In this document: piece after piece, positions 4,601-63,364 of the stretch | How the letters are laid out: each line of letters opens with the position of its first letter | How positions within the stretch are numbered: position 1 is the stretch's first letter | Assembly (NCBI RefSeq): GCF_932294415.1 | Contig: NC_065545.1 | Coordinates: forward strand, 21,025,357 to 21,089,356 | DNA: 64,000 nt | Direction of reading: 5' to 3' | From: Quercus robur | Lineage: Eukaryota > Streptophyta > Magnoliopsida > Fagales > Fagaceae | Notes under the pieces: model-generated | Seen by the model: only the letters and a program-made list of their open reading frames with translations | The model's database searches: none | Told to the model about the DNA's origin: nothing | Position numbers and translations under genes: made by a program

Positions 4601-7600
4601 TTTGTTCTTAAACTCACCTGATAATTCATGGACAAGGAATCTTACTACTACTTATATATGGTGCCCTTTTCAAGCTGGATTTACTAAAGTAGTCTTGCAT
4701 TTCTGTCAAACACAGCTTTTGTAACTTTCCCCCATTAAATTATTTTATATTTTTATTACCATATATTTCTCCTCTTTTTGAACTTGTGATATTATAGCAC
4801 CAAAAAACAAAAAAAAAATTAGTGGAACCTTCTTATTAAATGGAAGTATAAATTTTCACTCTTTGAAGCCCCCATATGGGAAGTGGATCCGTTTTTAACT
4901 GATAAAAAAAAAAGATTGATCTGTTTCTCACATTGGAAGGTATATGATGTGAATCTTAGATATGTGAAATTTTGGAATTCAGCTGGTCTTTTTTTTTTGG
5001 ATAAGTAATTGCAATTTATTAAATATTAAAAAGTGTACACAGAGTGTATACAAGTCATAGAAAACAGCAATGCAAGGAAAAAAGAAAGAAAAACAAGAAA
5101 CAAGCTGTAATATTAACAGCACAAATGTAGAGTCTCTAGAAACTCCATCCAAGAATACGTTGAGAGAGTAAAGGACATCGATCCCCATTCGTAGAGTCTT
5201 CAAATATAAAAACTTCAGACTTGGCACAGTGGACTCACTATCCTTGAAAGTGGGGTGATTCCTTTCACCCCAAATGCACCACATCAAACACGCTGGGGCT
5301 GCCCCCCACACTGTCACATATCTACGAGGATCCATTATACCATTCCAAGACTCAGCATGGGAAGAACGGAACACTTTGCATAACCCAAGAAATCCCAGCT
5401 AGGCAGAAGAGAAAAGCCCACAGATCAGAACCAACTGGGCAATGCAACAAGTGACTTATAGTTTCACCACCTGATCTGCACAAAGAACACCAATCTGCTA
5501 TAAAAATGCAGATTTTCCGTTATCAGAATTTTACCCAGGGCTGCCTCCCACACAAATAAAGAAACTCTAGGTGGGAAAGATTTTTCCAAATGAACTTCAA
5601 AGGGAACTTGGATGTATTAGTACCTCTAGTTCGAAGCACTCTATATAAACTTTTGATTTGAAGTCCTTTCTTAGGAGAAGGGATCCAAACCAATTTATCA
5701 CTATCAGGAGGACTAACCTTTGCCGCATATAAATCATCCAATTTATCACTGTCAGGAGGAATTCAGTTGGTCTTATAAGCTTATTATTGTCAATCATACT
5801 ATGTAGTGTTATTTGTTAACTCAACACAGAAGGTGAAAGTTTGAGTCATATATCCATTACTGTGAAATGGGCTTTTACATTGTTATTCTATTGGTTAGAT
5901 ATATCATTTTCAAAGTTTGCATAGTGGGTAATTTTTTATTTTCTTGGAATTTCTTTGGCCCTTATTATATGAATCAAAACTTAGTTACAGAGAACTACTT
6001 TGAGTTGAACTGTGATAGTCCAATCTTTGTCGGTGCTCATGCAGGGATTTCGGAAACTAAGATATGTTGACTTTTCAACATCTTACTCTATCACTGGAGG
6101 CTTTTTAAGGTCAGTGAATCTTCAATGTACAAGACTTTTTGAGAGTCATTCTATATTTTTGTATTTTGGAAAAGATTCTTCCCATTTCAAATGGATTCAA
6201 TTCTTGGCTTGAATTAATTATTACAAATCTAAAGTTGTATCTAGGGCAATGTCATTTAAAATGTTAAATGATGTGGCTCTGTGTACATTATTAGATATAA
6301 GAAATAAAATCTTAACCGTAAAATGCACTTTCAGGATCCTGTTCCTTGTATTTGAATCGTCTCTTTTAGATGCATTATCTCATTAGATAAGTCATGTTTT
6401 TGTGCTTAGGAACCTTGGAAGCAGCATGGGTGGAAATCTACTTGAGGTCTTGATTTTAAGGGACTGCATGCATCTCAAAGAGGTACAATGATCTCCCTCT
6501 CCCTGCCAATGAGCTCCGGCTCACATGGTACCTCAGGCTGTGGATTCAAAGCCCACTGAGTGCGCATGTAACTGGCCAATTAAAAGAAAAAATGATCTCT
6601 CTTTTTAACATTCAATTTTTGTGTGCAGGTTGAAGTTGCTCGGTTATTGACAGCTGTTATCGAAGGGGATTATAAGTGCCTTAAACATCTTGTGGGTGGA
6701 TAGAAATTTTGATAATACAACTTTTTTATGTAAATGTGATTTTGATATTATGGCTTGATGTGTAGTTTCTCTTCTAATTCTTAATACTACTTCAAATAGG
6801 ACATATCCAACAAGGAAGGTTTAGCTTCTGAGGGTGACTGGTATGATAGATGCTACAAATCTAGGTAATGGTTCTCCCTTCTTGATTATCTCTGTCATGA
6901 CTATATAGCCTTAATTTCTATTTAAACTAATTTTGGTTTATATTGTGCAGTGTCATTCCTATAAAGCAGGTTTTGGCAGAAAGGCCTGATGTCTGTTTGC
7001 TGGCTGAGTTTCCAACTGAAGGAAGGTTGGTTTAGTCTTCATTTATTATGGTTGATCCAATGGAATGGTGTCTTTGGAACAATGTATGATACTGTTCTGG
7101 GAATCTGGCTTGTTTTGCAGTTACATTGATATTGATCAAATGGCTGACATCGTGCAAGAGAGTGACGTTGGTCTGCCGTCACAGCTTAGCAGTCACATAT
7201 CAGATGCTTCAATGTTTACAAGCTCGTCTGAGAGTAGCTACAACAGTGATCAAGGTAGTGGCAATGAGGATGGCCATGATGCCAATTACGTTATGTATGA
7301 GGAAAGCTCAGATGAAGTGGAAATTGATTTGGTAACGCCTTCTCTCTCTCTCTCTCTCTGATGAAAATTATGGAATCTGACCATCTGGAAGGTTGGTATT
7401 TCTGTATAGGAATACTTGAGTTTATGTTAGCTTCAAAAATTGTATAGCAAGGTCACTTTTAAATAACACCTTAATGGCTCTTCCATGCTAATAATACAAG
7501 ACATGTAATTTACTGCAAGGTTTTTTGAGGATTGCAGATGTTAGGTAAATGCCATGTCGGTCTTACTTGTGGCTCACAATATAGCATTGTCTTGAAGCAT

Positions 7601-7836: not shown

Positions 7837-10993
<3,157 letters not shown>

Positions 10994-12382: not shown

Positions 12383-13830
12383 ATGACTACTAGTCCAGGT
12401 CACCAGAAGAGTGGAAAAGCCTCAAGCCACCCCAATCACGCTCAACAGTCTACACCTACTATTGCAACCGCCTTCTGTCTAACAAATACAGTCCATGGCA
12501 GTCGCCATGGTAGAGTTAACCCATCAGAATCAGGAGTTAACTCGCGAGATCAATCAAAGAAGGCAACGTCATGAATAGTGTGTAGAAGGGCAAGCTTAAA
12601 GTCAAGAAGCTAGAGAAGGAGAAAATGTTGAGCGTGAGAATCACTCAAGGGGTACCGTTTCACGCAAGGTGCCATACTTGGAAAAGGAGATGGATTAATG
12701 AGGAGAGCTATGGACGAGATGAGGGAAAATATGAAAATGACGAATCATGTAGATGACTTAGTTTATCGAATTGATTCCCTTTTTATAATGTCCATCAATA
12801 GTCATCCCCTACCTTCAAAGTTCAAGATGCCTGCATTAGACTAATATGATGAAACGTGTGACCCATGTGATCACATTGCCACCTTCAAGACCACGATGCA
12901 CTTTCAGGGGGTTCCGGACGAAATAATGTGTAGGGTCTTCCCAACCACCCTTAAAGGACCAGCACGAGTGTGGTTTAGTAAGATTCCTCCAAATACTGTT
13001 AGTTCCTTCAATGAGTTGAGTAAGTTGTTTGTCAATAACTTCATTAAAGGTCAAAGGCATAAGCGCTCCTCGTCCTGTTTGCTGACTATAGAGCAAGGAG
13101 ATAATAAAAGTTTACGGTCCTTCATCACTCGCTTCAATAGGGAATCCTTGATGGCGGACGAGATGGATGATAAGCTGCTGTTAACAGCCTTCCACAATGG
13201 AGTTAGTTCAGATTTATTCATCCACAAGCTCTATGATCAAGAACCACATACCACAGCTAAACCCATCCACTCAGCCCAAAGTTTCATGAATGCAGAAAAT
13301 GCGATCATTACCAAGAAGAGGAAGAGAGCAGAGCAGATGGAAGCGGAGCTCCCACATCATTCTGAACAAGGCACTCGTCCAAAGAAGGCCCGGACGGGAG
13401 AAAAGAAGGATAGAGACAACATGGAGGCATGTTCGTCTTTAGGAAGAAGTTTGCATTACACACCCTTGAACATTCTGCTTGATCAAGTGCTTATGCAGAT
13501 CAAGGATGACCCATCCTTGAAGTGGCCAGAGAAAATGAAGGGAGATCCTAATAAGCGTAATAAGAACAAGTATTGTCGTTTCCATAGAGACCACGGGCAT
13601 GACACGAACGAATGCTATGACTTGAAGCAGTAGATTGAGAATCTCATCAAGTAGGGAAAGTTGAGGAATTTTCTTGGACAAGATCATAAGGATGAAAAGT
13701 TAAAGGGAAAGGTAGAAGAACCATCACGACCCCTACTTGGAGAAATAAGAGTTATTGTAGGAGGAACTTCAGCAGGACGATCCTCCAAGTCAAGGAAGAC
13801 TTACTTGAAGGTGGTGCAGAACGTTTAACT
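12383..13830 (+). pseudogene. gag: Gag of gypsy element 1, decayed
   Basis: The start codon is at 12383 (MTTSPGHQKSG), followed by a frameshifted stretch. A long frame (12896-13633) encodes retrotransposon gag (GPARVWFSKIPPNTVSSF, FITRFNRESL) and the atypical Tat zinc knuckle CRFHRDHGHDTNEC. In-frame stops at 12842, 13631 and 13652 each fall where one C-to-T change in a Gln codon would create them. The product would have been the capsid/nucleocapsid protein of the particle. It cannot now be made full length. Confidence 0.82.
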
Positions 13831-22671: not shown

Positions 22672-23111
22672 ACTTTAAACTTTAGGGGTTATAATCACTT
22701 GTGGAGTGGACCAAAGTTTATGGACTAATAACCCTTTTTACCATTTTGGCATCAATTATAATATGTTCTCGTTAAATTTTTTTTTTTTTTACTATATTTA
22801 TAAATAAAGAAAACAATTTTTTTTTTTTTGGTTTGAGAAACAATAAATGATAACAATGTTTAAACTTTCAACCCAAGGAATATATTAGGAAATTTTTTTA
22901 GAAATTTTTTTTTTTTATAAAAAAAGAAAAAAAAATTAATTTGTTTAACAACTTTATATATATATATATATTATAAAAATTGTATTAAAACTAGTTTAAA
23001 ATAAGCTATTAACAAACTCTATATAAATATTTTTATATATATATTTTTTGTATGTTCTAATAAATATTACTATTATCTAAAAAAAATAAGAATATTTATG
23101 TCACATTGATT
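21274..23111. other. AT-rich intergenic region
   Basis: No gene is supported. A 31-bp direct repeat starting GAACCTACCACTTAAG lies near 21735 and 21850. Poly-A of about 40 bp spans about 22629-22669, T-runs occur at 22501-22515, and a TA microsatellite lies at about 22957-22972. Confidence 0.55.
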
Positions 23112-23116
23112 ATGTG

Positions 23117-23752
23117 TGATAGTGTTCGAAATCAGTAAGGTAGAATGGCCTGGCTTCGGTGGGCTGTTCAAGCAGTTGATGGCCTGCAAGGAAGAGAATG
23201 CGATCAAAAGAGGAGACCGGAGAAGACCGGTCGAACCCCCTCCGATGGAGAAGTTAGATTTGTAGAAGAATAAATTCCAAGTGTTTTGGAAATGTGTCTG
23301 AGAGAAAAGCCTTACCTTTGTCGGGTCCAGACCGGTCTCTTATATAGGGAGCTTGGGGCGGTTATTTGTTCGATAACCTCCCCAGGTTTTGTGGAATCCA
23401 ACAACTCCGGAGTAAACTCCCTCAACGGATATAAAATGGTAACTGCTAAATGGAAGTTAACTTATTCGAAGGGTTTGTCGAGATAGTTGAGGGTTGCTGA
23501 AAGTCTAAGTGTTGAGGTTTCGTTCGTCTGGTGTAGGGTAGTTTAGTCGTCCAAGGATATTTGACGACTTCTCATGGACGAACCTCATGGACGATCTTGT
23601 CGTCCATGGGAGACTTAAACTTATGGAGTGGTGCTATTATTTAATGGACGTCTCTCCTTCTTCTGGGTTGACTCTTGGATCAACCTGCGCTGTAGGCTCT
23701 GGACGAACCCTTTGGACGAGCTGGAGATGGATTATTTTCCGCTTCTCTATCA
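23117..23752 (-). repeat. Left LTR of element 2, inverted
   Basis: This is the reverse complement of the right LTR at 30078-30726, ending TCTCTATCA at 23752. Its outer end is the U5 end of the LTR, not the U3 end expected at the left of a normal element. It is 13 bp shorter than its partner because one copy of a short CATGAGGTTCGTC-type repeat is missing. Confidence 0.85.
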
Positions 23753-23820
23753 GTTGCCCCTTTGTTCAAAGGGTCGTCCAAGACATCGTTGTGATTTTGG
23801 CTAAATTTCACTTTTTCGTA

Positions 23821-24102
23821 CGCCACGTGTCGCGAAACTGTTGGTTGGCCAATCCTGTCGATCTCGTTTCCCAAAAGAATCGCCACGTGTCTGTCTCTGA
23901 GTGGCGAACGTCGTTTCGTTGACCCTGTTGCTGGGGCCTATAAATAGTACATTCTCTTTCATGCCCCTCACTTTTTTCCTCATTCTCTCTTCTGCCAATT
24001 CGTCCAAGATTCTCGTCTAGCTCTCGTCCTAGTTTCATCAGGTATTTCCTCTTTTCTTTTTTTGTTTTTAGGCTCTCATTTTAAGTCTTCTACATTCCAA
24101 AC
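23821..24102 (+). promoter_or_regulatory. Duplicate antisense-gene promoter, left arm
   Basis: CGCCACGTGTC occurs at 23821 and again at 23881 (G-box/ABRE core ACGTG), exactly 60 bp apart. A TATA box, TATAAATA, lies at 23939-23946. A leader follows with a possible 5'-UTR intron (CATCAG|GTATTT to TTTTTAG|GCTC) before the ATG at 24103. This is the mirror copy of the promoter at 29884-30010. Here it drives into the truncated antisense gene and the pol remnant. Confidence 0.65.
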
Positions 24103-24168
24103 ATGTCTTCATCGTCTAGTTTAGAGAGAGAGATAGACGACTACCTGGACGGCTCTGAGAGTGAGGGT
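24103..24168 (+). pseudogene. First codons of antisense gene, left arm
   Basis: The 22 codons starting MSSSSSLEREIDDYLDGS are the inverted duplicate of the start of the gene at 29727. At about 24168 they run into RNase H sequence in a different frame, and the fused frame stops after about 23 more codons. It marks the rearrangement junction. Confidence 0.85.
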
Positions 24169-26254
24169 GTCCCCACATGCCGTAAGTTCAGCTTTAATCA
24201 GAGAAGAAGGGAAAATACAAAAGCCGGTGTACTACACTAGCCGGGCACTCAGAGGAGCAGAGGGAAGATATCCGTTAATGGAGAAATTGGCTTTCGCACT
24301 AATAACGGCTTCTAGGAAGTTAAGACATTACTTCCAAGTTCATATCATTAATGTCATGACGGACCATCCGCTTAAGAAGGCAATGAACAAGCTGGAAGCC
24401 GCAGGACGACTCGTTCAGTGGGCAGTTGAACTTAGTGAATTCGACATTCGGTATCAACCGAGAAGTGCAATAAAGGCTCAAGCCTTGGCAGATTTCATTG
24501 CGGAGTTCACTCCATGTTATGAAGACCTGGGGGAAGGCGAGTACAACAACAAATGGGTCGTCCATGTTGATGGATCGTCTACATTATATGCTGGAGGAAT
24601 AGGAGTTGTTTTGCAGTCGCCAGAAGGGGACAAATTGAAATACAAGGCCCGTCTGCAATACCAGACTACTAACAATGAAGCGGAGTATGAAGCCCTTTTA
24701 AAGGGGTTGGAACTGGCCAAGTCCGTGGAAGCAGACTCAATACTTGTCCTGGGAGATTCTCAACTGGTCATAGGCCAAGTCAATGGGACATGTGAAGCCA
24801 AGGAAGACAGAATGAAGAAATATTTAAGGAAGGTAGTACGCCTTGTGAAGAAATTCAAAAAAGCAGATTTTATTCAAATCTCAAGGGAAGAGAATGTGGA
24901 GGCAGATACTCTGGCGAAGGAAGCATCTGCGAATGAGGCCTTGGACGAGATGAATGATGTACACTACATGCCGAACATAGACCTTCCAGAACTGATGCAG
25001 ATAGAGGGAGAAGGAAATTGGATGACCTCGATAGTGGCATACTTAAAGGACGGAAGGCTTCCAGAAGAGAAGGACGAAGCTAGGAAGCTCAGGGTCAAGT
25101 CAGCCAGGTATGTGCTTATGGACGAGGTGTTGTATAAGAGAGGTTTTTCCCAGCCTCTCTTAAGATGTTTGGCTCCGGACGAGGCCAATTACATGTTGAG
25201 GGAGGTTCACGAAGGAGCATGCGGGAACCATTCGGGAGCCAGATCACTCGTCCATAAAGTCATCCGAAGTGGATTCTATTGGCCAACCATCCAAACTGAC
25301 GCTAAAGCATATGTCAAAGTCTGTGATCAATGCCAACGCTTTAGCAACATTCCCAGACAGCCAGCAGAATATCTCACACCAATGATGGCCCCTTGGCCTT
25401 TCGCACAATGGGGACTAGATATTTTGGGGCCCTTTCCGACTGGAACTCGGCAAATGAAGTTTCTGGTGGTGGGAATAGATTACTTCACAAAATGGGTGGA
25501 AGCCGAACCCTTAGCCAAAATTACACAGCAGAATGTCAAGAACTTCGTTTGGAAGAACATTGTATACAGATTCGGAGTACCTAGAGTACTAGTGTCTGAC
25601 AATGGACGACAGTTTGACAACACACCCTTCAGGGATTTTTGTGAACAACTTGGAATGAAGAACCATTACTCCTCACCCTCCCACCCACAGGCCAATGGCC
25701 AGGCAGAAGTAGCGAACCGATCCTTGCTGAAGATCATCAAGACTCGGCTCGAAGGGGCAAAGGGGATATGGCCGGATGAATTACCAGGTGTTTTATGGGC
25801 TTATAGAACGACAGCGAGAACTCCAACAGGAGAAACTCCTTTTAAGCTAGCCTACGGAAGCGAGGCAGTTATACCAGCAGAAGTACACATGACGAGCCAC
25901 AGGGTTAGGAAGTACCAAACTGAAGAAAATGACGAACAGCTCCGTCTTAACCTTGACCTTAGGGACGAGGTCAGGATGGATGCAGAACAAAGGACAGCAA
26001 GGTACAAAAATCTCATGGCAAGACAGTATGATGCTATGGTAAAGCCTAGGCGTTTCAACATTGGAGATCTCGTCTTGAAGAGGGTTACCTTGGCAACAAG
26101 AAACCCAGCCTACGGGAAACTTGGCCCAAATTGGGAAGGACCTTATAGGGTTATCAACTGCAAAAGGCAAGGATCCTACTATTTGGAAGCTTTGGATGGG
26201 CGGAGGCTGGAACACCCTTGGAATGTTGAGCACCTCAGGAAGTACCATCAATAA
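24161..26254 (+). CDS. pol: Pol remnant: RNase H, second RNase H, integrase
   Basis: The frame is open for 697 codons, of which the first two come from the foreign arm. Residues 3-115 are the RT-linked RNase H end (SSALIREEGKIQKPVYYTS, MTDHPLKK). Residues 132-255 are the second, archaeal-like RNase H that marks the Tat lineage (HVDGSS at 135-140, D199 in LGDSQ, D249 in VEADTLAKE). Integrase follows: an HHCC zinc finger (H350, H357, C388, C391), a DDE core (D420 in GLDILGPF, D480 in VSDNG, E516 in NGQAE) and a C-terminal domain ending NVEHLRKYHQ. All catalytic integrase residues look present. The protein lacks gag, protease and the RT palm, and has no normal start, so this copy is not autonomous. 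Its frame does not match the upstream ATG at 24103. Confidence 0.9.
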   Translation: MRVSPHAVSSALIREEGKIQKPVYYTSRALRGAEGRYPLMEKLAFALITASRKLRHYFQVHIINVMTDHPLKKAMNKLEAAGRLVQWAVELSEFDIRYQPRSAIKAQALADFIAEFTPCYEDLGEGEYNNKWVVHVDGSSTLYAGGIGVVLQSPEGDKLKYKARLQYQTTNNEAEYEALLKGLELAKSVEADSILVLGDSQLVIGQVNGTCEAKEDRMKKYLRKVVRLVKKFKKADFIQISREENVEADTLAKEASANEALDEMNDVHYMPNIDLPELMQIEGEGNWMTSIVAYLKDGRLPEEKDEARKLRVKSARYVLMDEVLYKRGFSQPLLRCLAPDEANYMLREVHEGACGNHSGARSLVHKVIRSGFYWPTIQTDAKAYVKVCDQCQRFSNIPRQPAEYLTPMMAPWPFAQWGLDILGPFPTGTRQMKFLVVGIDYFTKWVEAEPLAKITQQNVKNFVWKNIVYRFGVPRVLVSDNGRQFDNTPFRDFCEQLGMKNHYSSPSHPQANGQAEVANRSLLKIIKTRLEGAKGIWPDELPGVLWAYRTTARTPTGETPFKLAYGSEAVIPAEVHMTSHRVRKYQTEENDEQLRLNLDLRDEVRMDAEQRTARYKNLMARQYDAMVKPRRFNIGDLVLKRVTLATRNPAYGKLGPNWEGPYRVINCKRQGSYYLEALDGRRLEHPWNVEHLRKYHQ

Positions 26255-26640
26255 GTGCTGACTCTTCACCGATGTCCTTGGACGAGATGTATGGACGAGA
26301 AGAAGTATTTTACTACTGTTAAGTGTTTTTAAGTATTTTAATAATCCCTTAGAAAGTACATTAGTGTTTTCACTTTTGTGCTATTCATGGACGAATTGGT
26401 TTGTATTTTTAAATTCAATAAGGCACTAGCTAATAAGCATGTGCCATGCCTGTGGACGAATGATTACATAAGTTTGGGTTTTCAAATATATATATATTGT
26501 TTTCAAATATATTATTGGAATCCTTATATGTTCATTCAGATTGATCCGCAAAAAGAAATCAAGCATGGACGAATGAAATCCTTGGACGCAAGGATATATC
26601 GTCCATAAACCTTTCTCCAAAGGAAAGATGAAAAGGTACA

Positions 26641-27005
26641 TCCGTCCAGAACATGGGACGAGGTGAAACCTAACCTGAAAGTGAAACTAAGTTTCATCCG
26701 TCCAGAACATAGGACGAGATGAAACCCAAGCTAAAATACGGAGGTTCATCCGTCCAGAACATAGGACGAAGATGAAACCCAAGCTAAATAAGCAAGTTTC
26801 ATCCGTCCAGAACATAGGACGAGATGAAACCCAAACTAAAATACAAAAGTCCATCCGTCCAGAACACAGGGCGAGATGAAACCCAAGCGAAAAATAAAGC
26901 ATGATTCATCCGTCCAGAACATGGGACGAGATGAAATGGGCATACTCGTCTAGACCCCAAGACGAGATGAATTCCCAAAAGTATTCGACCGAAACGCAGA
27001 CGAGC
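26641..27005. repeat. Tandem array with CGTCC/GGACG pairs, element 2
   Basis: Six units begin TCCGTCCAGAAC at 26641, 26697, 26749, 26802, 26854 and 26909 (spacing 52-56 bp), then decay to about 27005. Most units hold an inverted pair, CGTCC then about 8 bases then GGACG, that could form a small hairpin or a paired protein site. A longer pair, CTCGTCCA/TGGACGAG, lies at 27368-27389. The array lies between integrase and the antisense gene. Confidence 0.9.
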
Positions 27006-27507
27006 CAAGACTTCAAAATTAGCTTAACAATCCATTACCTTGGACGAGAAACGCTAAAAGTCTAATCATCCAGGACGACAAAATGATCGTCCATAATTTC
27101 GGAATGATGGAAAATCTAGCCAAAGGAATCAACATACTTTATCTTGGTGATGTAATAAAATTCACCCCCATGACCAAGACGAGGTGAACTGAATTCCTAG
27201 ATGGACGAACCACATTGCTGATATGAAAATAAAAAGTTCATACATAAAGCTGAAAACATATATATTCAAACACAATGAAGGTAAAAATAGAATTATTCAT
27301 TTCTTTCATTCAAAGGGTGGACGACCAACGTCCAAAAACCCCTTTAGTTTTGAATATGTATATAAAGCTCGTCCACAATCCTGGACGAGATGATTGTACT
27401 TGCATGAGCTTTAAAATAAAAGAAAAAAAAAAAGAAGTAAAAAGCCCAAAACAACGGGCACTTCCATGAAAAAGCAAATAAAAACAAATTCTCTAAGGAA
27501 ATAGACT

Positions 27508-29727
27508 TCACTTGGGTTCGTCCTGAGTAACTTCAGTGTTAGCATCGTCCATGATGTTGACGTCCTCGGAACTCGTCTGCAACACAGAACTCTCTGTAGC
27601 AAGAGGAAGCTTGAACGAGTTGAAGTCCAAATCAGGATACGCTTCTTTGGCATCAGCACGGAAGTCTTCATACCCAGCTGCATAATGACTGTCTAGACGA
27701 TTCTTATACTCGTCAGACTTCTTAAAAGCAGCAATTGCTTCTTCACGTGCCTTCTCCAAAGACGAGGTAAGCTCTGCAACTTGTCCTTCTAGATGGACGA
27801 TGCGAGTATCCTTCTCTAAGTTGTCAGCTTTTAGCTCCTCGACATCGTTCTTCAGCTTCGTCTCGCTCCCCAGCAGACGATTAAAGTCCTCGGTCAACCT
27901 AATGACCTCCCCCTTCTTGGATAAGACCTCATGGCTTAGCTCCTTAGCCTTATCCTTGGCAGTCTTGGCCTCAGTAGCAAGCTCCTTGGCCTGGCAAGTC
28001 GCTGTATAAAACTTTGACATGGCCTGCATTTGGACGAAAAGGAGTTAGACATTTCATTCAAAGTTAAATGTTTACACACAAGGACGAGGAAGAAACTTAC
28101 CTTGAAAAGGTCATGGATGCCAGAACGCTCAAACTCCTTCACTGACATGTTGTAACATTCGTTAACTTCATGATCAGTGACGATCCCTTTGAACGTCCTC
28201 CATGCATAACCCTCGTCCAGAACCAAATTAGAGGGACGATCAGAGGGCTCAGACGGGCTAGGCTTGTAAGAAGTTTTGGGAGCAGGGGGAGGATCAGACT
28301 GGACAGGATGAACTATTTGGACGGGCTCCACGTCCACAGGCTCGTCCAAGTTCACTGTTGGTGGTACGAACTTTGGAACCTTGGGAAGGGAAGTCTTACT
28401 TGGCTTTTGCTTTTTGTGGCCACGACGACTGGGAAGGTCGTCCAGGTCCACATTGCTTGAAATTGGCTTGGACTTCCTCTTCCCAGCCTGGACGGAAGCC
28501 ACTTTGGGAGTTGGAGCAGCAACATCCTCGTCCCCGCTAGCCACTGTTTTTTCCTTGTTTTCCCTCATTGTGCTTATCCCTATGACGAGAAAAATTAATC
28601 AGAAAAATTTAAAAAGAAAATCAAAAGAAAAGAGAGCTGAAATAATAGAATATAATGGACGACACTTACTTCGACGAGTGACCTCCTCGTGACTTAGGTT
28701 CTCAGCAGTAGGAAGTGGACCAAGTCCCCAAGTTGCTAGACGACTAAGAGTAACTAAGTCGTGGAAAGTCCTTCCTGGAAAGGTGCGAACCACGTCTATC
28801 CGGTCCAAGGAAAACTTGTCCAAGCGTGGACGAACAACAGCTGCATCACCAAGATAAATGGTTAGACGAGTAACAGATAAGAAATTTTAAGGGACAAACA
28901 GGGTAAAATGGAAAGAAAGACATACCCTCAGGACGAAGACGACCTAGAGGGCTGGTAAAAGGTGGGAAGAGGGGAATACCCACATCAGCTGGGTCCCCAG
29001 CCCAATTTCCAGAAATAATAAAAAATTCTTTTTTCCAAAGCCGGTCAGACGAACTACGGCCCGTTATTAAACTGTAATATGTACCTCTGGACGAAAACTG
29101 GTAGAACCCAGCAGATTTTTTGATCTCTGAGGGCTTATAGCAGTAAAGGAACTCGTCCACTGTAATTGGACGGTTCCCTTCCAATGCCTCACGCCATAAT
29201 ACTTGCATGGCAACAATCGTCCTCCAGCCATTGGGGTTGAGCTGGTTTGGCCCAATACCCAACCTTTGGAGGAGGTCTCTGCAGAAAGAGTTTAAGGGAA
29301 ACCTAAGGCCAGCTAATAGGTAAGAAGTATATACCCCTAAGCCAGAGGAAGGGGAACAACACCATTCACCAGGCTGGGGTAGACGAGGGTTAAGCTCTTT
29401 AGGGATTTGGTATCTATCTACAAGAGTTTTTAACTTAGCACCGTCTAAGGTGGATGCTACCTCTGGGGCACAACTATAGATTACATCTTCTTCGTCCTCT
29501 TCCTCGTCTTGAGGAGGACTAGATGGCTGTCTGGACGAACTAGCCTTAGATCCAGAAGCTGCCCTACGTCGTTGCTCCTGAAATTCCTCTAAAGGAATGC
29601 CAGGAACCCCAGACGAGTAATGCTCGTCTGAGGAATCACTACAGGACGAACTACCTATACTACCCTCACTCTTAGAGCCGTCCAGGTAGTCGTCTATCTC
29701 TCTCTCTAAACTAGACGATGAAGACAT
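27508..29727 (-). CDS. Antisense gene (aORF) of Tat element, intact
   Basis: Four exons on the minus strand (29727-28926, 28840-28670, 28579-28101 and 28023-27508) join in phase with GT-AG introns to give 655 residues. Exon 1 has a Ser/acidic N-terminus (MSSSSSLEREIDDYLDGS), then the domain annotated in plants as putative gypsy-type transposon protein (Transposase_28-like). Its blocks include YTSYLLAGLRFPLNSF, LNPNGWRTIVAMQVLW, DEFLYCYKPSEIKK, GFYQFSSRG and WKKEFFIISGNW. Exon 3 is basic and Pro-rich, with candidate nuclear signals (GKRKSKP, GHKKQKPSK). Exon 4 is a long coiled coil (about residues 490-600), then an acidic tail. Tat elements are known to carry such antisense frames; their function is not established. 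Its own TATA promoter lies at 29884. Nothing in the frame is broken. Confidence 0.85.
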
Positions 29728-29883
29728 GTTTGGAATGTAGAAGACTTAAAATGAGAGCCTAAAAAAAGAAAAAGAAAAGAGGAAATACCTGATGAAACTA
29801 GGACGAGAGCTAGACGAGAATCTTGGACGAATTGGCAGAAGAGAGAATGAGGAAAAAAGTGAGGGGCATGAAAGAGAATGTAC

Positions 29884-30010
29884 TATTTATAGGCCCCAGC
29901 AACAGGGTCAACGAAACGACGTTCGCCACTCAGAGACAGACACGTGGCGATTCTTTTGGGAAACGAGATCGACAGGACTGGCCAACCAACAGTTTCGCGA
30001 CACGTGGCGT
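29884..30010 (-). promoter_or_regulatory. Promoter of antisense gene, right arm
   Basis: On the minus strand a TATAAATA box (29884-29891) lies about 160 bp before the ATG at 29727. Two CACGTGGCG sites (29941 and 30001), both ACGTG G-box/ABRE cores, are 60 bp apart. The promoter lies between the 3' LTR and the gene, so the antisense transcript has its own start, not shared with the LTR. G-box cores bind bZIP and bHLH factors. Any hormone or stress response is inference. Confidence 0.65.
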
Positions 30011-30077
30011 ACGAAAAAGTGAAATTTAGCCAAAATCACAACGATGTCCTGGACGACCCTTTGAACAAAGGGGCAAC

Positions 30078-30726
30078 TGATAGAGAAGCGGAAAATAATC
30101 CATCTCCAGCTCGTCCAAAGGGTTCGTCCAGAGCCTACAGCGCAGGTTGATCCAAGAGTCAACCCAGAAGAAGGAGAGACGTCCATTAAATAATAGCACC
30201 ACTCCATAAGTTTAAGTCTCCCATGGACGACAAGATTGTCCATGAGGTTCGTCCATGAGGTTCGTCCATGAGAAGTCGTCAAATATCCTTGGACGACTAA
30301 ACTACCCTACACCAGATGGACGAAACCTCAACACTTAGACTTTCAGCAACCCTCAACTATCTCGACAAACCCTTCGAATAAGTTAACTTCCATTTAGCAG
30401 TTACCATTTTATATCCGTTGAGGGAGTTTACTCCGGAGTTGTTGGATTCCACAAAACCTGGGGAGGTTATCGAACAAATAACCGCCCCAGGCTCCCTATA
30501 TAAGAGACCGGTCTGGACCCGACAGAGGTAAGGCTTTTCTCTCAGACACATTTCCAAAACACTTGGAATTTATTCTTCTACAAATCTAACTTCTCCATCG
30601 GAGGGGGTTCGACCGGTCTTCTCCGGTCTCCTCTTTTGATCGCATTCTCTTCCTTGCAGGCCATCAACCGCTTGAACAGCCCACCGAAGCCAGGCCATTC
30701 TACCTTACTGATTTCGAACACTATCA
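30078..30726 (+). repeat. Right LTR of element 2
   Basis: This 649-bp LTR starts TGATAG and ends CTATCA. A short purine-rich stretch (AACAAAGGGG) precedes it as the likely polypurine tract. TATATAAG at 30497-30504 is the LTR promoter TATA, pointing right toward the host gene at 31118. A candidate donor-acceptor pair (GAG|GTAAGG at about 30527 and CTTGCAG at about 30658) could make a spliced leader. Confidence 0.82.
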
Positions 30727-30731
30727 ATGTG

Positions 30732-31117
30732 TATTAAAGTTTAAGTTAAGTTTAAGTTTTTATAATGCTAGGTTACACTTCTTTCGGTTTTTTATTTTTT
30801 TATTTTGATAACAAACTTGAAACTTTTATTAAACAGAAGAAAACATTACATCACGATAAAGAACTTGTTCCAAGAAACAAGGATCCTCTTTCATCCACAT
30901 CATATTATTTATGGGATTCAAAGTTCTACCCATAATGTTAAGAAAATGTTATTTTCTCATGTATGTAGAAATGGAAATAAGCCTGCCCATATAGTTTCTT
31001 TCGTTTTAAAAAAACAAAAGACGAGAGTTTACGAAACCCAAAAATAAAAATACTAAAGTGGAACTTGAAAAAAACAGAGTTATTTTACTGTACAATTTCT
31101 ACAAGAAGACCAACAAA
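30732..31117 (+). promoter_or_regulatory. Short upstream region of plastid-protein gene
   Basis: Only 386 bp separate the element's target duplication from the start codon at 31118. The stretch is AT-rich with no clear TATA box, and part of the original promoter may now lie on the far side of the insertion. Confidence 0.45.
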
Positions 31118-33957
31118 ATGGGAACTCTATCTCTCTTCCCTCTCTCCCTATCTTCAACACTGCGACCCAATCCCTTTTCTTCCACTTTCAGAACTCAACT
31201 CTCCAACCCCATATTCTACCCACTCCTCTCCTCAACAACTCACAGAAAATCACAAAGGTTTCAGTTTCCCTCCAAAACCATAGCTTTTGGGAGCAACACA
31301 AATGACCCAAAAGAGTCTCTTTTCTTGGATGAAAACGGTGGTGTTGATGACATGGATGGGTATCTCAACTACCTGTCTCTCGAATATGACTCTGTCTGGG
31401 ACACCAAACCATCCTGGTGAATCTTTCCCTTCATGGGTCTCTCTCATTTTCACTGATACTTCACAATTCTCATTGTTTGTCATTACCTTTTTGCTTTTTC
31501 ACTGTGATTCCAAAGTTTGCTAATGTTTTGTGTTTCGCCTTTTATGTTAAAAGCATGTATACATATAAATGTGTTATTTTTGAGTCTATGAATGGATAGA
31601 GTGCCCTCTAGGCTCTAGAGATTTGAATTATATTTATCTTTCCTGGTTTTTTGGTACTGTATAGTATTCTCTGAACTGGTATTCTTCTTTCTTAATGTTT
31701 TTTTTTTTTTTTTTGAATTGCTTCTTTCTTAATGTTTATAATGGTTCTGATGGGTACTTGTATTAAGGTTCACACTTTAGTGCAATTTTGCCTACATAGT
31801 TTTGAATTTAATTGTACATTAGTTTTAGGTTTTGGTTAATTGAAGACATAAAGATTATAGTCCAGATGACTGACCATAACCTTCAGATTATCAAGAAAAA
31901 GAGGGCATGTGTGTCCCCTTGCATGGTGCTATTTTAAAGTGATAGTCATTGCCACATGGTAATTGAGCTTGATATGATGGCTAGTCATGAGATCATAATA
32001 AAGACCCCATACTATATTGGTATGGGCAACATCAGTAACAACAACTACAACCAAGCCTTAGTCCCAAAATTTCAGGGTCGGCTACAGATCATCAACAGAC
32101 TATTCAAGGTCGGCCACGTGCTATATTGGTATAGTCAGTGGTTTCAATTTTATTCCTTGGTCCTATTTAAGATGATAGGTCCACCTTTCATGTCAAAACC
32201 AATGTGGCCTGAACTGATTGTAATTTTGAATGCTAACTACTAGAGGAATCTAGTGGAAGATGGACAGAATAAAATGCAAGTTTGCTGATCTGAACAATAA
32301 GCATATCTAGTTAACTACGGTGTGATACATGACTTTAAGCCGAATGAGTTCCTAAGAGTCCTTTCTGCCATTTAATAAGTTCTTATAAAATTTTATGTAT
32401 ATTCAGGTTTTTTTCACAGTTTGTCATGACAAACATTTGAATTATGCTTCATTTATTTCCCGAGGGATCTTATAGCTATCTGGGATTAAAATGGTAGTTT
32501 TAGGAATCCAAACTTTCTTTCCCTTCCTTCCACTTTTTGGCAACTAAATAGAGCAACAGTGTATTGTATAAGTTTTGTTCATGTACTGGAAAGTGGAGAT
32601 GAGCAGCAACGACTAAAATTGTTTAGCAGGCAAGGCATGTATAATTGATATTTTGAACAAATAACTTATGGTGAATTGAGCATTTTGAGTTTTGACATGT
32701 GTAAGAGTTGAGGTTCGAAAATAAAAAGGAATATGCTTATATCTTAAAATGACCATTTTTGCATCTATGCTTGCTTTATCATCTGGTTTGATTCCTTCCA
32801 TCATTTTGTTGCTAGGTGTCAACCATGGACCATAATTCTAACTGGAGCATCGGTGATTGCTAGTAGCTGGTTAATTTGGCATTCAGTAGTAGTCACAGTA
32901 GTCATACTCTTACTAATATGCACATGGTGGTACATCTTTTTGTATTCATATCCACAGGTTTGTGCATCTTCTGCTAGTGTATGATTTTTTAAATAATTCG
33001 ACTTCCTCCCCCATTTTATTTTTTCTTTTGGAGCATGAAAATGCTAATTAATTATGCTCTGCTTGAAGCAGTTTCTCTTTCTTATACTGGATTTTAAAAT
33101 TTTTGGAGACATTTGCAGGGGATGGGAACCCTATATAATAGTTGAAGTCTCTCTCTCACACAAACATTTATACATACTCCCTTTCTACTTCAACGAAAAC
33201 ATTTAATTTATTTACAATTAAAAAAATACAAAATTTACTGTGATATCTATGGAAATAAGATACATCTGTTGAAGCAATGATGAACCATTATCCATAAGAT
33301 TATTTGGTTCTTGAAAGGGCTTCATGACATTATAGATTTGGGATTCTTGAATTTTAGTTGCTGAAATAACATTCACTGATGACTGCACTTACTGTTCATG
33401 ACGAGATGCTTTACATGTACGATTTGACATGTATATGGAAGTTGTTTGCATACATATGAGTGTTTCTCTTTTAAAACATTTATGTCCTGGTTCTAGAAAA
33501 CCGATGGCAATGAGGCATCTAGAAAAGGTCACAAAACCATGGACTGCATGTTGTACTTGCTTGGAATGATGAATTCATATTTCTCTTGTTGATTCGTAGT
33601 GGGTACTTTCTAGATGAATAGTTATTCGCAATAATCATGTTATTCCCTTGCTTAGAATTTAGAGGGAATGATCAAGAACCATGAAATAGATAGACATAAA
33701 TCTGCTCAGGATTCTTTAAAACATGTTCACATACTGTTTGTTTCCTTTTGGAATTTTAGAAAGATATAGAATTTGGATCAGCTGTTCTAGTATCTGCATT
33801 CAGAGAAACAGAAACAAAAAGAAGAAAGGAAGGAATTGAGTATTGAATTATTCTCTTTTGTCAGGCATATTCAGAGATGATTGCCGAGCGAAGGAAGAGG
33901 GTGGCAAGTGGTGTTGAAGACACATTTGGCTTGGGAAATGGCAGTGATTTAAGCTAA
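31118..33957 (+). CDS. Plastid-targeted small membrane protein
   Basis: Three exons (31118-31416, 32816-32957 and 33865-33957) give 177 residues in phase. Residues 1 to about 55 are Ser/Thr/Pro-rich with few acidic residues, like a chloroplast transit peptide. Then comes an acidic stretch (DENGGVDDMDGYLNYLSLEYDS) and the motif TKPSWCQPWTI across the first splice junction. Two hydrophobic helices follow (ILTGASVIASSWLIWH and VVVTVVILLLICTWWYIFLY), then a basic C-terminus (IAERRKRVASG). Cyanobacteria and plants share a small family with a WCQPWxI motif and two helices (DUF6737, from memory). Function is unknown. The start is the first ATG with a plausible transit peptide. The two introns are 1399 and 907 bp. 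Confidence 0.85.
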
Positions 33958-36276: not shown

Positions 36277-37182
36277 CTATTCATTCTTCCAAGCATACAA
36301 AATCAGTGAGAAACCAAGACCTTGTGATTGGGAATCTCTAAATTGCTGAGAGTAAGACCAAGTTAATACTGAAGGATCAAATATAGAGTGGCTAGACCAT
36401 AACTTCTCAGCTGAGAGGCAAGTTTGGAACATGAAAACTGCATTGCCCATAGCATTCCCATAGAGCCAATTATGAACATCCCAAAGCACTTCAACTGGAA
36501 GACCATCCACTACAATGGTGTAATTGCCCCTAAACTTCCACTTCAACCTCTTGATCTGCATCACTGTCTTACTATCAATTCGGATCACAAGGCATGGATC
36601 ATTGAGCCCAACAGTATCACACTCAATTGTGACATCATGCATTTGTCCCTTATCACAAAATTTAGCTTTTGTCCCATAAAGCTTCTTCCCAAATATGTGT
36701 TCCCTCTTGGCAATAAAAATTGCATTGGAATGAATAGGGTCAGTGGTGTCAACCTTCTTGTATGCCTCCTTTTTCAAATCCCCAAGCAGTAAAACTATTT
36801 CTTGATTAAACACAACAGCTAAGTAAAATCCCTCCATCGGCTCTGGCCCAGAACCAAATTTAGCATTAGTTAAGTCCCAGTAAATCTCGATTTTACTAGA
36901 ATCCACTTCTAAATTCTTAGACCCTTTTCTTTTAGAGAACAACCATGGCTTTATATCAACCTTACAAAGGCATTGATTGGCCAAATCATCAATTCCAATA
37001 CTAAGGCCTTGACCCATCAAACTTTTGGTCCATGTAATGGTGATCAAGCAAGAACGACCATGTAATTTACATTGATAGACACAAGTTACCACATTTTGAG
37101 CAGCTTTAGTTGTACTACTTGAAGATGATGAATCAGCAACTTGTACCCCGTTTTCACCAAAACAAGAAGGAAAGTCTCTCAT
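36277..37182 (-). CDS. DUF868 family protein
   Basis: A single exon encodes 301 residues. The protein opens MRDFPSCFGENGVQVADSSS. It has the plant DUF868 blocks: VTCVYQCKLHGRSCLITITW, LSIGIDDLANQCLCKVDIKPW, FSKRKGSKNLEVDSSKIEIYW, LTNAKFGSGPEPMEGFYLAVV, LGDLKKEAYKK, RLKWKFRGNYTIVVDGLPVEV, WDVHNWLYG and FMFQTCLSAEKLW. It ends in a Ser/Gln stretch and a hydrophobic LGFSLILYAWKNE. Length and layout fit intact family members, which are plant-specific with no established biochemical role. I see no signal peptide. The start is the first Met of the conserved N-terminus. Confidence 0.93.
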   Translation of the reverse strand: MRDFPSCFGENGVQVADSSSSSSTTKAAQNVVTCVYQCKLHGRSCLITITWTKSLMGQGLSIGIDDLANQCLCKVDIKPWLFSKRKGSKNLEVDSSKIEIYWDLTNAKFGSGPEPMEGFYLAVVFNQEIVLLLGDLKKEAYKKVDTTDPIHSNAIFIAKREHIFGKKLYGTKAKFCDKGQMHDVTIECDTVGLNDPCLVIRIDSKTVMQIKRLKWKFRGNYTIVVDGLPVEVLWDVHNWLYGNAMGNAVFMFQTCLSAEKLWSSHSIFDPSVLTWSYSQQFRDSQSQGLGFSLILYAWKNE

Positions 37183-38589
37183 GATACCAAAATTAAAACC
37201 AAAATATTTTCTTTCTTTTCTTTGCTAATCCAAAAAGATAAAAAATAGAAACTTTCTTTCTGATATGACTATAATGTTACCATGCAACAATTAGAGCCTT
37301 CACTACTAAATAAGAGAAATGCAGACAGTGTAAAAATTAATATACAGAAAAGAGTCTTCTAAGTTCTACCTCAACTGAGTGAAGATGAACTCAAGCATCC
37401 ATCATCCATAAGTTTCAAGATCAGCTTCTAAAGCCTTCAACTTGATCTGGGTGTCTGGTTCTTGAAGCCACTTGGATATGAGAGAGAGAAAAGAGAAAGA
37501 AAGCTTGAGGACCTAGATTTGCTTCACTGGCAAAACTCTCTGCCAAGTCCAACTCAGAAATGAGCATGACTCATAGAAAAATAGATTTAAAGAAACAAGA
37601 GAGGAATGGGAAGTGAAAGGAGACGGGGATTAAATCACATGGGGGGAAGTAGAAGAGGCCTAAATATGAAGAAACTGCAACTACTGTGTCCTTGCTGGAT
37701 TTGTCTGGTTTATTATATAATACAACATTACAGAAAAGAAAAGCTAAAGCTATCTTTCTCTCTCTGACACACACAAATGTAATATAATATAATATTCTCT
37801 CTCTCTATGTCTGATTTGTATACAATTTTTTTTTTTTACCCCAAAAAAAAAAGAAAAAAAAGAAAAAAGAATCAAATCATAATGGGCCTCCCTTTAACTG
37901 ACATAACACATGCTTTAGAGCTGAAAAAAATCCAAAGCTGAAAAAGTCTAAAACGACAACTTTTGAGACCTCCCTCACTGTAGAATTTTGCTTTTGCATA
38001 ATTGTGTGTCACTTTTGCCATTAATTGTGTCACACTTGCCAAGTAAGACAAATATGATTATAGTGGGAGAAACAGAAAGATTTCGAGGAAAGTAAAGGTA
38101 TTTCCACGAAGATATCGGGTTAATTTCATTGTTTCCTACCATTTGAAGGTTTCATTGTCTACCATCAAGTACATTGATTGAGTGATTGTCCTGCTTTACT
38201 ATTGGCAAAAGAATAGTAATGGCAAATTAATAATATTTATATTACAAAATATAATGGAGTGGTTGTGTGTGTATAGGCTTGAAAATATAGACTACATTGA
38301 GTAATAACAATGTTATTTGTTTGCACAATAAGTTCATTTCACTTTTGTTATTTATAAAATCCCTCGCGATATCTTAATGAAAAAAAAAAAAAAAAAAAAA
38401 AACTCCCTCATGATATTGCAGACCTATTTGGTAATGTTGTTCTAGTAACATTGTTTGTATTTTTTGAAAATACGTATGGATGAAAAAATATGTGGAAATA
38501 CATATAATGTTTTTTAAAAACTGAAAATTATTGCTCAAAATCCCATACCAAACACCCTTGCATATCTTAATTTTTGGGTTTGGTCAATA

Positions 38590-39770: not shown

Positions 39771-40850
39771 CCATTCTATTCCTACTTTCCTAGATTATAT
39801 ACTGTTACTAATTGTACTGTGTATGGTAAAAATAAAGGGTGAAAATAGAATTTATTTGAGTTTAGAAGCATAGTTTATTTTGAAGTCAATTTATGTATAG
39901 GTTTTTTTAAAATCTGCATCCCTTTTTTTCGGTACAATCTTGAATATTCTTATCTAACTTATTTTTAAATTAAGGGGATCTAGTAGAAACTACAAGAATT
40001 CAGAATGGTACAAGTGTGTCATATGAGGCGATAAGGGAACGAATCAGCACATGTATTGGCTCAATATGTCAAGAGTATTGCTAATTTTATAATATGAATA
40101 GAGGAAAATCCTAATATGATCGAGTCTTCATTAACTCAAGATGTATTGAATTTCTCTTATTTTTAATGAAAGTTAAGGTATTTCTTAAAAAAGGAAAAAC
40201 TTTTTTTTAAATCACTAATTTTAAATTATGACTTACAAACGCTTTAATATAAGGGGCCATGTTGAAAGACATTAGCTTAATATAAATTGAGTCGCACGCA
40301 TGCTCAAAAAGAAAAGTGCTAATTAAAGAGTGCGATAAAGTCAAGAGGAAGGAAAAAGGGTCTCCTGGGGGACTAATTAATTGGCTATGCTATTCCTAGG
40401 GTTAATGTTTGATAAACAAAAAAAGCAATAAAAATCATTGTTGAACTCATATTCCATACTTTCTATGCATGTTGGGAAATTGATTATATTTTTGTCAAAG
40501 AGCTTATCATAACCAAATTAAAACAACCCCTCGCTAACTCACGATTCAAATGATAATAGATAATTAAATATCTTTAATGAGTTATGTGAATTAATATATA
40601 TTAATAATTTTATGAAATGTCACATAATAGATTGAAGGAGATTTCATTATATGGCTTTGAAGAAAAATTTATCAAAAAAAGAGAATTAAAGATACTAAGT
40701 TACTGTTTATTGTGTGTGGGTGTATGAGCAAGTGTAAATTATGGTTTCATAGTTCAATATATCATAAATGTCACCCATGTGAAATATTAAATGGTATTTA
40801 TATGTTAGAAGGCCCATGAAAGATAGTATATTATATTTTATTTATTATTA

Positions 40851-42466
40851 GGCGTAAATGCACTTTTAGTTCTTACATTTTGACGTTTTTTCATTTTAGT
40901 CCCTACATTTTATTTTTTCTACTTTTAGTCCCTAAAATCAATTAACGCGTTCCATTTTGGTCCTTTCCGTTAACCCACTACCGGAATTTGCTTAGGTGGC
41001 AGCCGGAGGGATTAGAATAATAATAAAAATGCCACATCACCAATGACACATCAGCATAAAAATTTAAAAAATTAATTTATTAATTTTAACAAAATTAAAA
41101 AACATAAAAACAAAATTTAAAACATAAAAATACATCAGAAAATCAAACCAAGAACATCCGTCATCAGCCATCAACTTACAACCCAGAAAATCATCTTCTC
41201 TCACTCTTCTTTCTTCTTTATTCTTTCTTGGACTCTCTCTCTCGATTTTTTGGCAGTGGATTGGAGCGGCTGTGGATCAGTGGGTCTTGTGATTTGGGTG
41301 TAGTGGTTTAAGATTTTGGCCGGTGGGTTAAGATTTTGGTCAGTGGGTTGCGATTTGGGTTTCAATGGTGGTGGTTGGCCGATTTGGATGGTAGTTGGGT
41401 TGGTGATTTTCGGTTTGCGATCTGGGTTTTAGAGTGTTGGTCTTGTGTTTCGGTGGTTGCGATCTGGGTTGGTGGTTTTCGGTTTGCTCGCCGTTTGCAT
41501 GTATTTTGCTCGTCGTTTGCTCGCTGTTGGTTTGTCGTGGGTTTGCTCGTTGTGGATCTGGGTTTTGTTTGTTATGGGTTTGGGTTTTGCTTGGTGGAGA
41601 CCATGGGTTGCTTTTTCAGAAACTTCCAACCAAACCCAGAAACTGCCACCACACCACCACCACACAACCCACCTCTACCATATGACCCACACATCCCACC
41701 TCTACCATATGACCCACACATCCCAAAACTTCCACCACACAACCCACACGGCCCATAACCTCCACAACCCGCCGATCTCCACCATGCCGACGCTGATATG
41801 CACGCCCTATAGAAACCCTAAACGCCGATCTCCACTACGGCAAAGGCAGATCTCCACGCCCCAAATGCCGATCTTCAAACAACCAAACCCTAAACACCAA
41901 TCTCGACACCATCCGCTGATTTGTAATGAGAGAGAGAAGGAAGAGAGGGAAGAGAAATAATAAGAGTGGGTGGTGGCTTGCAGTGGACTGTGACAGTGGG
42001 TCCGGCCATGGGTGGCTCTAGTGATGGTGTTCATGACCATGGGTTTCAGCCTTGAAGAGAATGGGTTTGAAGAGAAGAGAGAGCAACATGAGAGAGAGAG
42101 AGAGAGAGAGGAGATGAGAGAATGAAGAGAGAGAAAAAAAGTCACCACAATTCTGGATTTTTTGTGTGTTTGATTCAAATTGATGTATTTTTATGTTTTA
42201 AATTTTGTTTTTATGTTTTTAAATTTTTTTTAAATTAATAAATTAATTTTTTAAATTTATATGTTGAAGTGTCATGGTGATGTGGCATTTTAATTATTAT
42301 TTTAATCCCTCCGGTTGCCACCTAAGCAAATTCCGGTAGTGGGCTAACGGAAATGACCAAAATGGAACGCGTTAATTGATTTTAGGGACTAAAAGTGGAA
42401 AAAATAAAATGTAGGGACTAAAATGGAAAAATGTCAAAATGTAGGGACTAAAAGTGCATTTACGCC
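40851..42466. mobile_element. MULE-type element with long terminal inverted repeats
   Basis: The inverted repeats of about 285-290 bp (40851-41138 and 42181-42466) start GGCGTAAATGCACTTTTAG. TTATTATTA (40842-40850 and 42467-42475) is a 9-bp target duplication, as Mutator elements make, although the site is simple sequence. The interior (about 41200-42170) is more GC-rich than the flanks, with GGGTT-type repeats, a 27-bp tandem pair (about 41670-41730) and an AG run at 42088-42110. No transposase is recognised. Open frames inside (for example 41445-41960) look like low-complexity sequence, so I call it a non-autonomous MULE. Confidence 0.8.
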
Positions 42467-42475
42467 TTATTATTA

Positions 42476-58558: not shown

Positions 58559-59440
58559 GAAAACCCTTGTGCGCGCCAAAAGTGAGGCTGTTGGGCTTGA
58601 CCTCACTTGGGCTCATAACTTACTTATAAGACGGGCTTAAAATTTCTTACTTTTGGTCGTTCTTGGCACAGAGACTCAACATAGTTTATTCTTTCTCTTA
58701 CTGAATCACTATTTCTCTCCACTCTCTATTTTTTTATGAACCTCTCAACAACCCTTCTCCTTCCCCAACTTCTCATATTTATAGTTCTAAATTAGTGGAG
58801 AGATCATGATTACTGCCATAGTTAGTGTAATTGAAGGTCCAATATCATCTGTCGTAAGTGGATGTTTAGGTGAGAGTGGAATGTGGCGAATGTGGCCTTG
58901 GAACTTGGTTCCAACTCAAGTGATAATGCTTGGTAGTGATGTTTCCTGGAAACTGCCAAGCATGCTATGGTATGTTCGGGAACTTCACACCAAGCAATGG
59001 TTAGGTGATGAGACTTGGACTTGTAATTTGTGGGGGTTGAGTAGAAAGGGATTGAAAGTGTGGGCCATGTTGCTGGGCCTGAATCCAAGGCCCAATTGGG
59101 TTCGGGAACCTCGGTGCCGTACTTTAGCCCCCCCTTGATTCATGCCCGGCTACTGGGAAGAATCAAGGAACTGAAAAGGCATTCTCGTTTTGGGAGATTA
59201 ACAGGTAGAAACTTGGGCGGTTACGGCATCCCATTAATGCTCTCTCAAAAGACGTGCTATTCCGGGGCGCCAGGTTCAGTTGTCATTATTACCTGACGGT
59301 TCATGAACCGAGGAGACGCGTGTGTCGATTACCATTGGTATTCATAGAGTTTTTCTTTAATCATGCCTATTTATTGCTGATTAAACGTCTCTCTGTCCTC
59401 TTTGACCTCTATAAATAGTTCATTTCAGAACGTTCTTTCA
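58559..59440 (-). repeat. 3' LTR of element 3
   Basis: The proposed ends are TGAAAACCC (58559) and CTTTCA (59440), nearly matching inverted termini. A pyrimidine-rich stretch just right of it (CTTTTTCACTTCCC) would be the polypurine tract on the minus strand. A minus-strand TATAAATATG at about 58774-58783 fits the LTR promoter. The partner LTR is outside the window, so the edges are unconfirmed. Confidence 0.55.
59409..59417 (+). promoter_or_regulatory. TATA box of element 3 antisense gene
   Basis: CTATAAATAG on the plus strand lies near the LTR edge, about 220 bp before the first recognisable coding exon at 59632. It mirrors the TATAAATA box of the antisense gene in element 2. Confidence 0.6.
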
Positions 59441-59631
59441 CTTTTTCACTTCCCTTTTTCTGAGCTTACTCTCTGCCGAGCATTCATTTGAGCGCTTACT
59501 TACCAGTCCAGAGACCCTTCCTTTCTTAGAGCCCAAAGTAAGTTCTCTACCCCTTCCTTTTACTTTAGTTTCTTTCTTCGAGTTTCTTCCTTCAGTTTTA
59601 GGCTTTGAAATAGGTTTCGCTTTTCTTCTAG

Positions 59632-62280: not shown

Positions 62281-62711
62281 TTGCCGAACCGACTCTTCAA
62301 TGCTTTTATTTCTTTTTATTGCCTTCTAATACTATTTCTTTTCCAGTAAATTTGCCTATGTCACCGGGCTGTGGTGACTGAACAATTTATTTATTTCCCG
62401 AGGATGACCCGTATGCAGTTGCCGGGTTTGGCGACGAAACATTGATTCTATTTTTCTGTTAACTTTATTTGGATGATGATTTATTTGTCATGTGCTTGCT
62501 TTGATCATGCTCGTGAATGCTTGGTTATTGCTTTGTTCTGTGTTGTTTCCTTCCCCTATTTTTTGTTGTTGCCACTTATCTTCTTGCATGTATGGTCGGG
62601 GATGATTTGTATGGTGGGATAAATCAAGCCCCCATATATTGGGTGTCTTACATAACACATATTTGCTTTCTTGAGAAGATGAACGGCAAGCTGCCTCATG
62701 TTCTGGCATAA

Positions 62712-63215: not shown

Positions 63216-63364
63216 TTTAACATAATCCATTAATACTAAATATGCAATTAATTAATACTTACTGCACAATAATGAAATTGAATATAACTGCAATAAGGAA
63301 CTTCATCATTATATTGACTAGAATGGTGTACAGGGTTTAGATTTACGTTTCCGTGCATGAATGT

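Follow-up and report, generated by a model that had tools for sequence, protein, structure and literature searches.

The stretch of DNA analyzed here (the window) comprises 64,000 nucleotides (nt) of Quercus robur contig NC_065545.1 (assembly GCF_932294415.1, positions 21,025,357 to 21,089,356, forward strand) and contains a Ty3/gypsy long terminal repeat (LTR) retrotransposon whose two LTRs are inverted relative to each other. The element occupies positions 23117-30726 of the window, begins with TGATAG, ends with CTATCA and is bracketed by ATGTG, which lies immediately outside each border (23112-23116 on the left, 30727-30731 on the right). Direct reading thus bears out an earlier note on this locus, which had placed the block inside one perfect duplication. 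A target-site duplication, usually of 5 base pairs (bp) in plants, is a standard mark of LTR retrotransposon insertion, and it is found here on both sides. The flanks are AT-rich, and the probability of a 5-bp match between them lies between 0.0023 (from base composition) and 0.0052 (from 200,000 random 5-mer pairs), which disfavors duplication by chance. Beyond the duplication there is no sign of flank homology: 37 of 95 in-register positions match, with 33.6 expected, and BLAST comparison of the 2-kb flanks with each other returns zero matches with the low-complexity filter and, without it, short matches only, almost all of them within one pair of A/T runs.

The left LTR (23117-23752, 636 nt) is reversed, on the minus strand, and was recognized by its inverted match to the right, or 3', LTR (30078-30726, 649 nt, plus strand). 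The inner end of each LTR, where it begins as U3 (unique 3'), is touched by a polypurine tract with a short spacer, AAAGGGG-CAAC, which lies at 30067-30077 on the plus strand and, reversed, at 23753-23763 on the minus strand. TATA-like motifs at 23339 (minus strand) and 30497 (plus strand) are both directed outward; the TATA-like patterns were chosen by hand, and one of them also matches the left flank at 23022. The polypurine tracts at both inner ends and the outward orientation of the TATA-like motifs together mark both outer borders as U5 (unique 5') ends; that the LTRs face each other, as the earlier note had it, holds good. A standard LTR retrotransposon has direct LTRs, with a primer-binding site (PBS) inside the 5' LTR. 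Here the LTRs are inverted and, with U5 outermost at both borders, neither can by its position have a PBS on its inner side; no separate PBS search was run.

The inverted repetition extends well past the LTRs. The left arm (23117-24168, 1052 nt) aligns with the complement of the right arm (29662-30726, 1065 nt) over 1052 positions, 10 of them mismatched; a single gap of 13 nt corresponds to one unit of a tandem repeat at 30238-30272. A chance origin is out of the question for 1-kb arms with 99% complementarity, and BLAST finds no longer inverted pair in the window, the runner-up measuring 288 nt at 94%. Inside the right arm, the segment 29662-30066 is the native 3' region of the element: it holds, on the opposite strand, codons 1-22 of an antisense gene together with its promoter region (TATA-like motif at 29884, minus strand). 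Its inverted copy in the left arm, 23764-24168, holds the same promoter region (TATA-like motif at 23939), the leader and codons 1-22 (24103-24168), now reading on the plus strand. The alignment confirms the earlier note in tracing the left arm to the 3' end of the same element, copied in inverted orientation. The predicted folding of the left-arm leader is unremarkable (z 0.25).

Arm homology stops at 24168, after the twenty-second antisense codon, and RNase H sequence follows with nothing in between. The junction (24167-24169) is located by the end of the arm alignment and by the pol reading frame: antisense codon 22 is 24166-24168 and the first pol codon is 24167-24169, so that the 22-codon stub and pol lie in different frames and no fusion protein results. 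The GT at 24167-24168 may be common to both sides, provided that the GTG with which pol starts here is native. A junction near 24168 into RNase H, as previously suggested, proves to be exact, and the RNase H profile match starts at model position 13 of 105.

The open pol frame (24167-26254, plus strand) runs from the junction to a stop codon and encodes a truncated Ty3-type RNase H (PF17917, residues 2-92), an additional RNase H of the RVT_3 type (PF13456, residues 135-253) and then, in the next piece scanned, the zinc-binding (PF17921) and core (PF00665) domains of integrase. In the PDB, structures of Ty3 pol and of prototype foamy virus (PFV) integrase match the integrase piece. The frame is open throughout, so the source copy was intact over this stretch. 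Between pol and the antisense gene lies a tandem repeat array (26632-26936) with a period of ~52, also called as 105. The first open stretch of the antisense gene (28849-29727, minus strand) matches Transposase_28 (PF04195, E 2.4e-08, 34.5 bits against a cut-off of 26.2). Two further open stretches on the same strand, 27511-28044 and 27939-28598, have no Pfam match and are probably later exons of this gene. Judged by its anatomy, the element is missing gag, protease, reverse transcriptase (RT), PBS and 5' LTR.

This domain order, the antisense gene and the tandem repeats fit a truncated copy of the Retand lineage (Ty3/gypsy, Tat clade). The published accounts of that lineage give as a defining feature, for Ogre and Retand alike, an additional RNase H that separates RNase H from integrase (PMC6317226); they treat an antisense Transposase_28 gene between pol and the 3' LTR as a Retand trait (PMC11963269), the domain being present in 23% of the Retand elements surveyed (PMC6317226); and they report tandem repeats between pol and the 3' LTR in about half of recently active Retand families, so that these are not obligatory (PMC11963269). 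All three features are found in the oak element, the last of them as the array at 26632-26936, and its pol-to-3' LTR distance of 3823 nt falls within the published range of 2933-6566. The difference is that the oak copy has an inverted copy of its 3' end where gag to RT, PBS and 5' LTR belong. At gathering thresholds, Rfam has 0 matches in the window. A collection of viral contigs yields 7 pattern matches to the RNase H piece, 0 of them confirmed, and 0 matches to the polypurine-LTR pattern, as expected for a plant element.

The best reading of these facts is a single integrase-mediated insertion of an aberrant linear complementary DNA (cDNA) carrying two U5 ends. Borders exactly at the LTR termini, one target duplication bracketing the whole, and an arm that stops where a cDNA would end all argue for one integration. 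The unrelated flanks beyond both LTR termini point the same way: a cDNA ends at these termini, whereas an inverted duplication made in the chromosome should continue into flanking DNA. That the inverted molecule formed before integration, by whichever of two routes, is assigned a probability of about 0.78. The earlier note had proposed two 3' cDNA fragments joined head to head and integrated through two U5 ends. One integration with two U5 ends stands; the joining of two fragments is not established by these data, because RT could arrive at the same molecule through a single strand switch, with no need for two breaks followed by a ligation.

Such a switch, in which the minus strand turns onto minus-strand cDNA, is preferred over end-joining, even though sequence does not separate the two; as the specific mechanism it comes close to an even bet. 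The minus strand would be synthesized from the 3' LTR leftward as far as RNase H, would leave its RNA template and would re-prime, within the antisense gene, on minus-strand cDNA (its own 5' part or that of a sister molecule) at a match of perhaps 2-3 nt. Copying would then run through polypurine tract, U3, R and U5 to the 5' end of this template, and synthesis of the second strand would yield a linear molecule with U5 at both tips. Integrase would use both tips, and host repair would generate the 5-bp duplication. In this scheme gag to RT and PBS would never be copied, leaving a product unable to replicate normally. The model is economical: it takes one molecule and one switch, and outward-facing U5 ends are its required outcome. 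Secondary priming of the plus strand was considered as a source of the left arm and set aside, no purine-rich tract being seen by eye at 29662.

Next in standing, and less probable, is an origin from two cDNAs: either 3' fragments were end-joined head to head before integration, or integrase paired the U5 ends of two cDNAs from one particle and inserted them together, after which host repair trimmed their far ends and sealed them to each other. Borders, duplication and junction would come out the same, and concerted insertion of two separate U5 ends is ordinary in vitro for several retroviral integrases (PMC3790719). Two cDNAs would, however, require two molecules, two truncations (one at antisense codon 22, the other inside RNase H) and a ligation, and the comparison of the two arms with each other shows no excess divergence that would hint at two sources.

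Insertion through two U5 ends is required by the strand switch and by the two-cDNA origin alike. Pre-cleaved DNA mimicking U5 alone suffices for concerted two-end products in vitro with the integrases of PFV, mouse mammary tumor virus (MMTV) and Rev-A, and with human immunodeficiency virus type 1 (HIV-1) integrase in the presence of LEDGF (PMC3790719). Several considerations weigh against reading the locus as one insertion of an aberrant cDNA by strand switch. To suppose that a plant Ty3-type integrase would insert U5 with U5 is to extrapolate from these retroviral experiments. According to one review, a U3 and a U5 end must both be acted on for integration in infection (PMC11054761), and according to another the Rous sarcoma virus (RSV) enzyme may recognize the two ends differently (PMC12789967). 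Copying to the 5' end of the minus strand should meet the attached primer tRNA, so that clean U5 tips need prior tRNA removal or trimming. The microhomology at the junction is a conjecture about native bases left of it that the locus no longer holds. The arms are not perfect copies, differing by the one 13-nt tandem unit (through slippage in copying or a later change), and two sister cDNAs would explain near-identical arms equally well. Lastly, no second example came to light: among titles and abstracts of the open-licence literature, none was found on an LTR retrotransposon of the integrase type in which one event produced inverted LTRs together with a target duplication; with that scope, this is weak evidence of absence.

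The earlier note had argued against a later inversion of a normal element. The argument holds for a simple inversion, after which either the borders would be one U3 and one U5 or the duplication would be disrupted. It fails for templated repair with two junctions, because TGATAG/CTATCA is a 6-bp inverted microhomology exactly at the border. An ordinary element with its ATGTG duplication could later have broken in its 5' half and been repaired by copying its reversed 3' end, from the shared TGATAG into RNase H; since the termini are inverted, a switch at the border is possible with the duplication kept. This course of events is nevertheless improbable. There are 1885 inverted exact 6-mer matches between 29001-31000 and the left flank, taken as 2 kb plus the 6 bases that open the LTR, a count inflated by AT-rich sequence and leaving out the vanished left LTR, so the terminus would have been a rare pick. 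The copied patch of 1.05 kb must also end neatly inside the same element.

An assembly artefact, in which two oppositely oriented copies of the family were misjoined, is a slighter prospect still. Inverted near-identical repeats of kilobase length are known misjoin sites, and the arms are just that. Against this, 10 differences and a 13-nt difference in length mean that neither arm was duplicated by software, flanks brought together by a false join would agree over 5 bp ~0.2-0.5% of the time, and the 64-kb window is without any N. A propagating DIRS-like family with inverted LTRs, in whose favor one might cite the inverted terminal repeats themselves and one published sentence on a locust Gypsy-25 family with an inverted LTR pair (PMC8786324), can be virtually dismissed: the integrase core in open frame and the target duplication speak against any DIRS-type element, and with the TATA-like motifs of both LTRs directed outward no ordinary genomic RNA would arise.

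The differences that the arms have accumulated look like the decay, while methylated and after insertion, of arms that started out near-identical. Transitions account for 9 of the 10 mismatches, and 7 of these 9 fall at CG/CHG sites, which make up 170 of the 488 C/G sites of the right arm. This is an excess with a one-sided binomial P of 0.011, in a test that assumes every transition to be C to T and in which 4 of the 10 differences form two close pairs that are perhaps not independent. The Kimura two-parameter (K2P) distance is 0.0079 for the LTRs, 0.0121 for the rest of the arms and 0.0096 for the whole arms. With 1.3e-8 and 7e-9 substitutions per site per year, the LTRs or the whole arms give an age of about 0.3-0.7 million years.

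With both LTR promoters apparently directed outward, the element could make no genomic RNA and is probably dead as a retrotransposon. The two copies of the antisense-gene promoter region, on the other hand, face inward, their TATA-like motifs (23939, plus; 29884, minus) lying ~5.9 kb apart. Genes of this kind are reported to be transcribed in antisense in maize Grande and, at a weak level, in Retand, and a role for double-stranded RNA has been suggested (PMC7264820). If transcripts from the two promoter regions converged or read through, they could form duplexes along the arms and so trigger silencing of the Retand family as a whole by small RNAs, as has been proposed for Mu killer and MuDR. 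A silencing effect of this kind may be a reasonable idea by analogy; the composite proposition, that the locus is a natural, heritable product of RT copying minus-strand cDNA back as far as U5, inserted by way of two U5 tips and capable of such silencing, is a long shot.

If the structure is correctly read, a single locus documents that a cDNA could integrate in spite of its aberrant form. It would follow that two U5 ends are acceptable in vivo to an integrase of the plant Ty3 type, and that a minus-strand switch to a DNA template, or the head-to-head joining of cDNAs, makes inverted molecules that are competent for integration. Annotation of LTR retrotransposons commonly seeks direct LTRs, so insertions with inverted LTRs would be missed, though their frequency in plant genomes could be counted. 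Loci of this kind would be natural candidates for silencing of their own family through hairpin RNA.

The remainder of the window has a plant-type gene content, with host genes for a WDR5-like beta-propeller protein (8861-9601) and a DUF868 protein (36280-37224). The right LTR points at an open frame of 100 amino acids with a methionine start (31118-31420), ~390 bp to the right of the element. It has no Pfam match up to E 1 and is probably the first exon of a gene; its start resembles a plastid transit peptide. Other repeats lie outside the element: a retrotransposon gag fragment (12845-13630, PF03732, 1.3e-14), a zf-RVT fragment that is probably a non-LTR retroelement remnant (1111-1566, PF13966, 2e-20), and the 288-nt, 94% inverted pair (40850-41137 and 42181-42467), possibly a foldback element or a DNA transposon with terminal inverted repeats. 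Tandem arrays at 60646-61089 (period 146) and 62708-63219 (period 75), near an open frame without Pfam match (59415-60050), might be the 3' region of another retroelement.

Among systems already described, palindromic DNA has reportedly been a subject of older retroviral work. The sentence on locust Gypsy-25 (PMC8786324) may be a true precedent or loose wording. HIV-1 proviruses with inversions are recorded with n=1 in each of two classes (PMC9278108); PMC2151762 has primer design as its subject. DIRS-1 shares inverted terminal repeats with the oak element but relies on a tyrosine recombinase, believed to insert intermediates that are circular (PMC5633606), whereas the oak element has integrase domains and a 5-bp duplication: the five pieces scanned gave no tyrosine recombinase match in Pfam at E up to 0.01, and the integrase core PF00665 is present. 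Mu killer of maize is, like the oak locus, a partial inverted duplication, there of an autonomous transposon, and a proposed source of hairpin RNA; it differs in its DNA-transposon origin and in being a demonstrated silencer, where the oak locus is a candidate (PMC3440606). The argument made here has a close counterpart in the complex LTR retrotransposons of grasses, for which Sabot and Schulman (2007) argued single insertion from a target-site duplication and outer LTRs that match, and attributed the structure to abnormal template switching (PMC1950507). In both cases an abnormal product is taken to have inserted as one unit, on the strength of one duplication and near-identical outer LTRs. 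Their elements have an internal third LTR, two complete cores and direct LTRs; the oak element, with only two LTRs, these inverted, and a partial core, falls outside that type and would call for a switch to the opposite strand.

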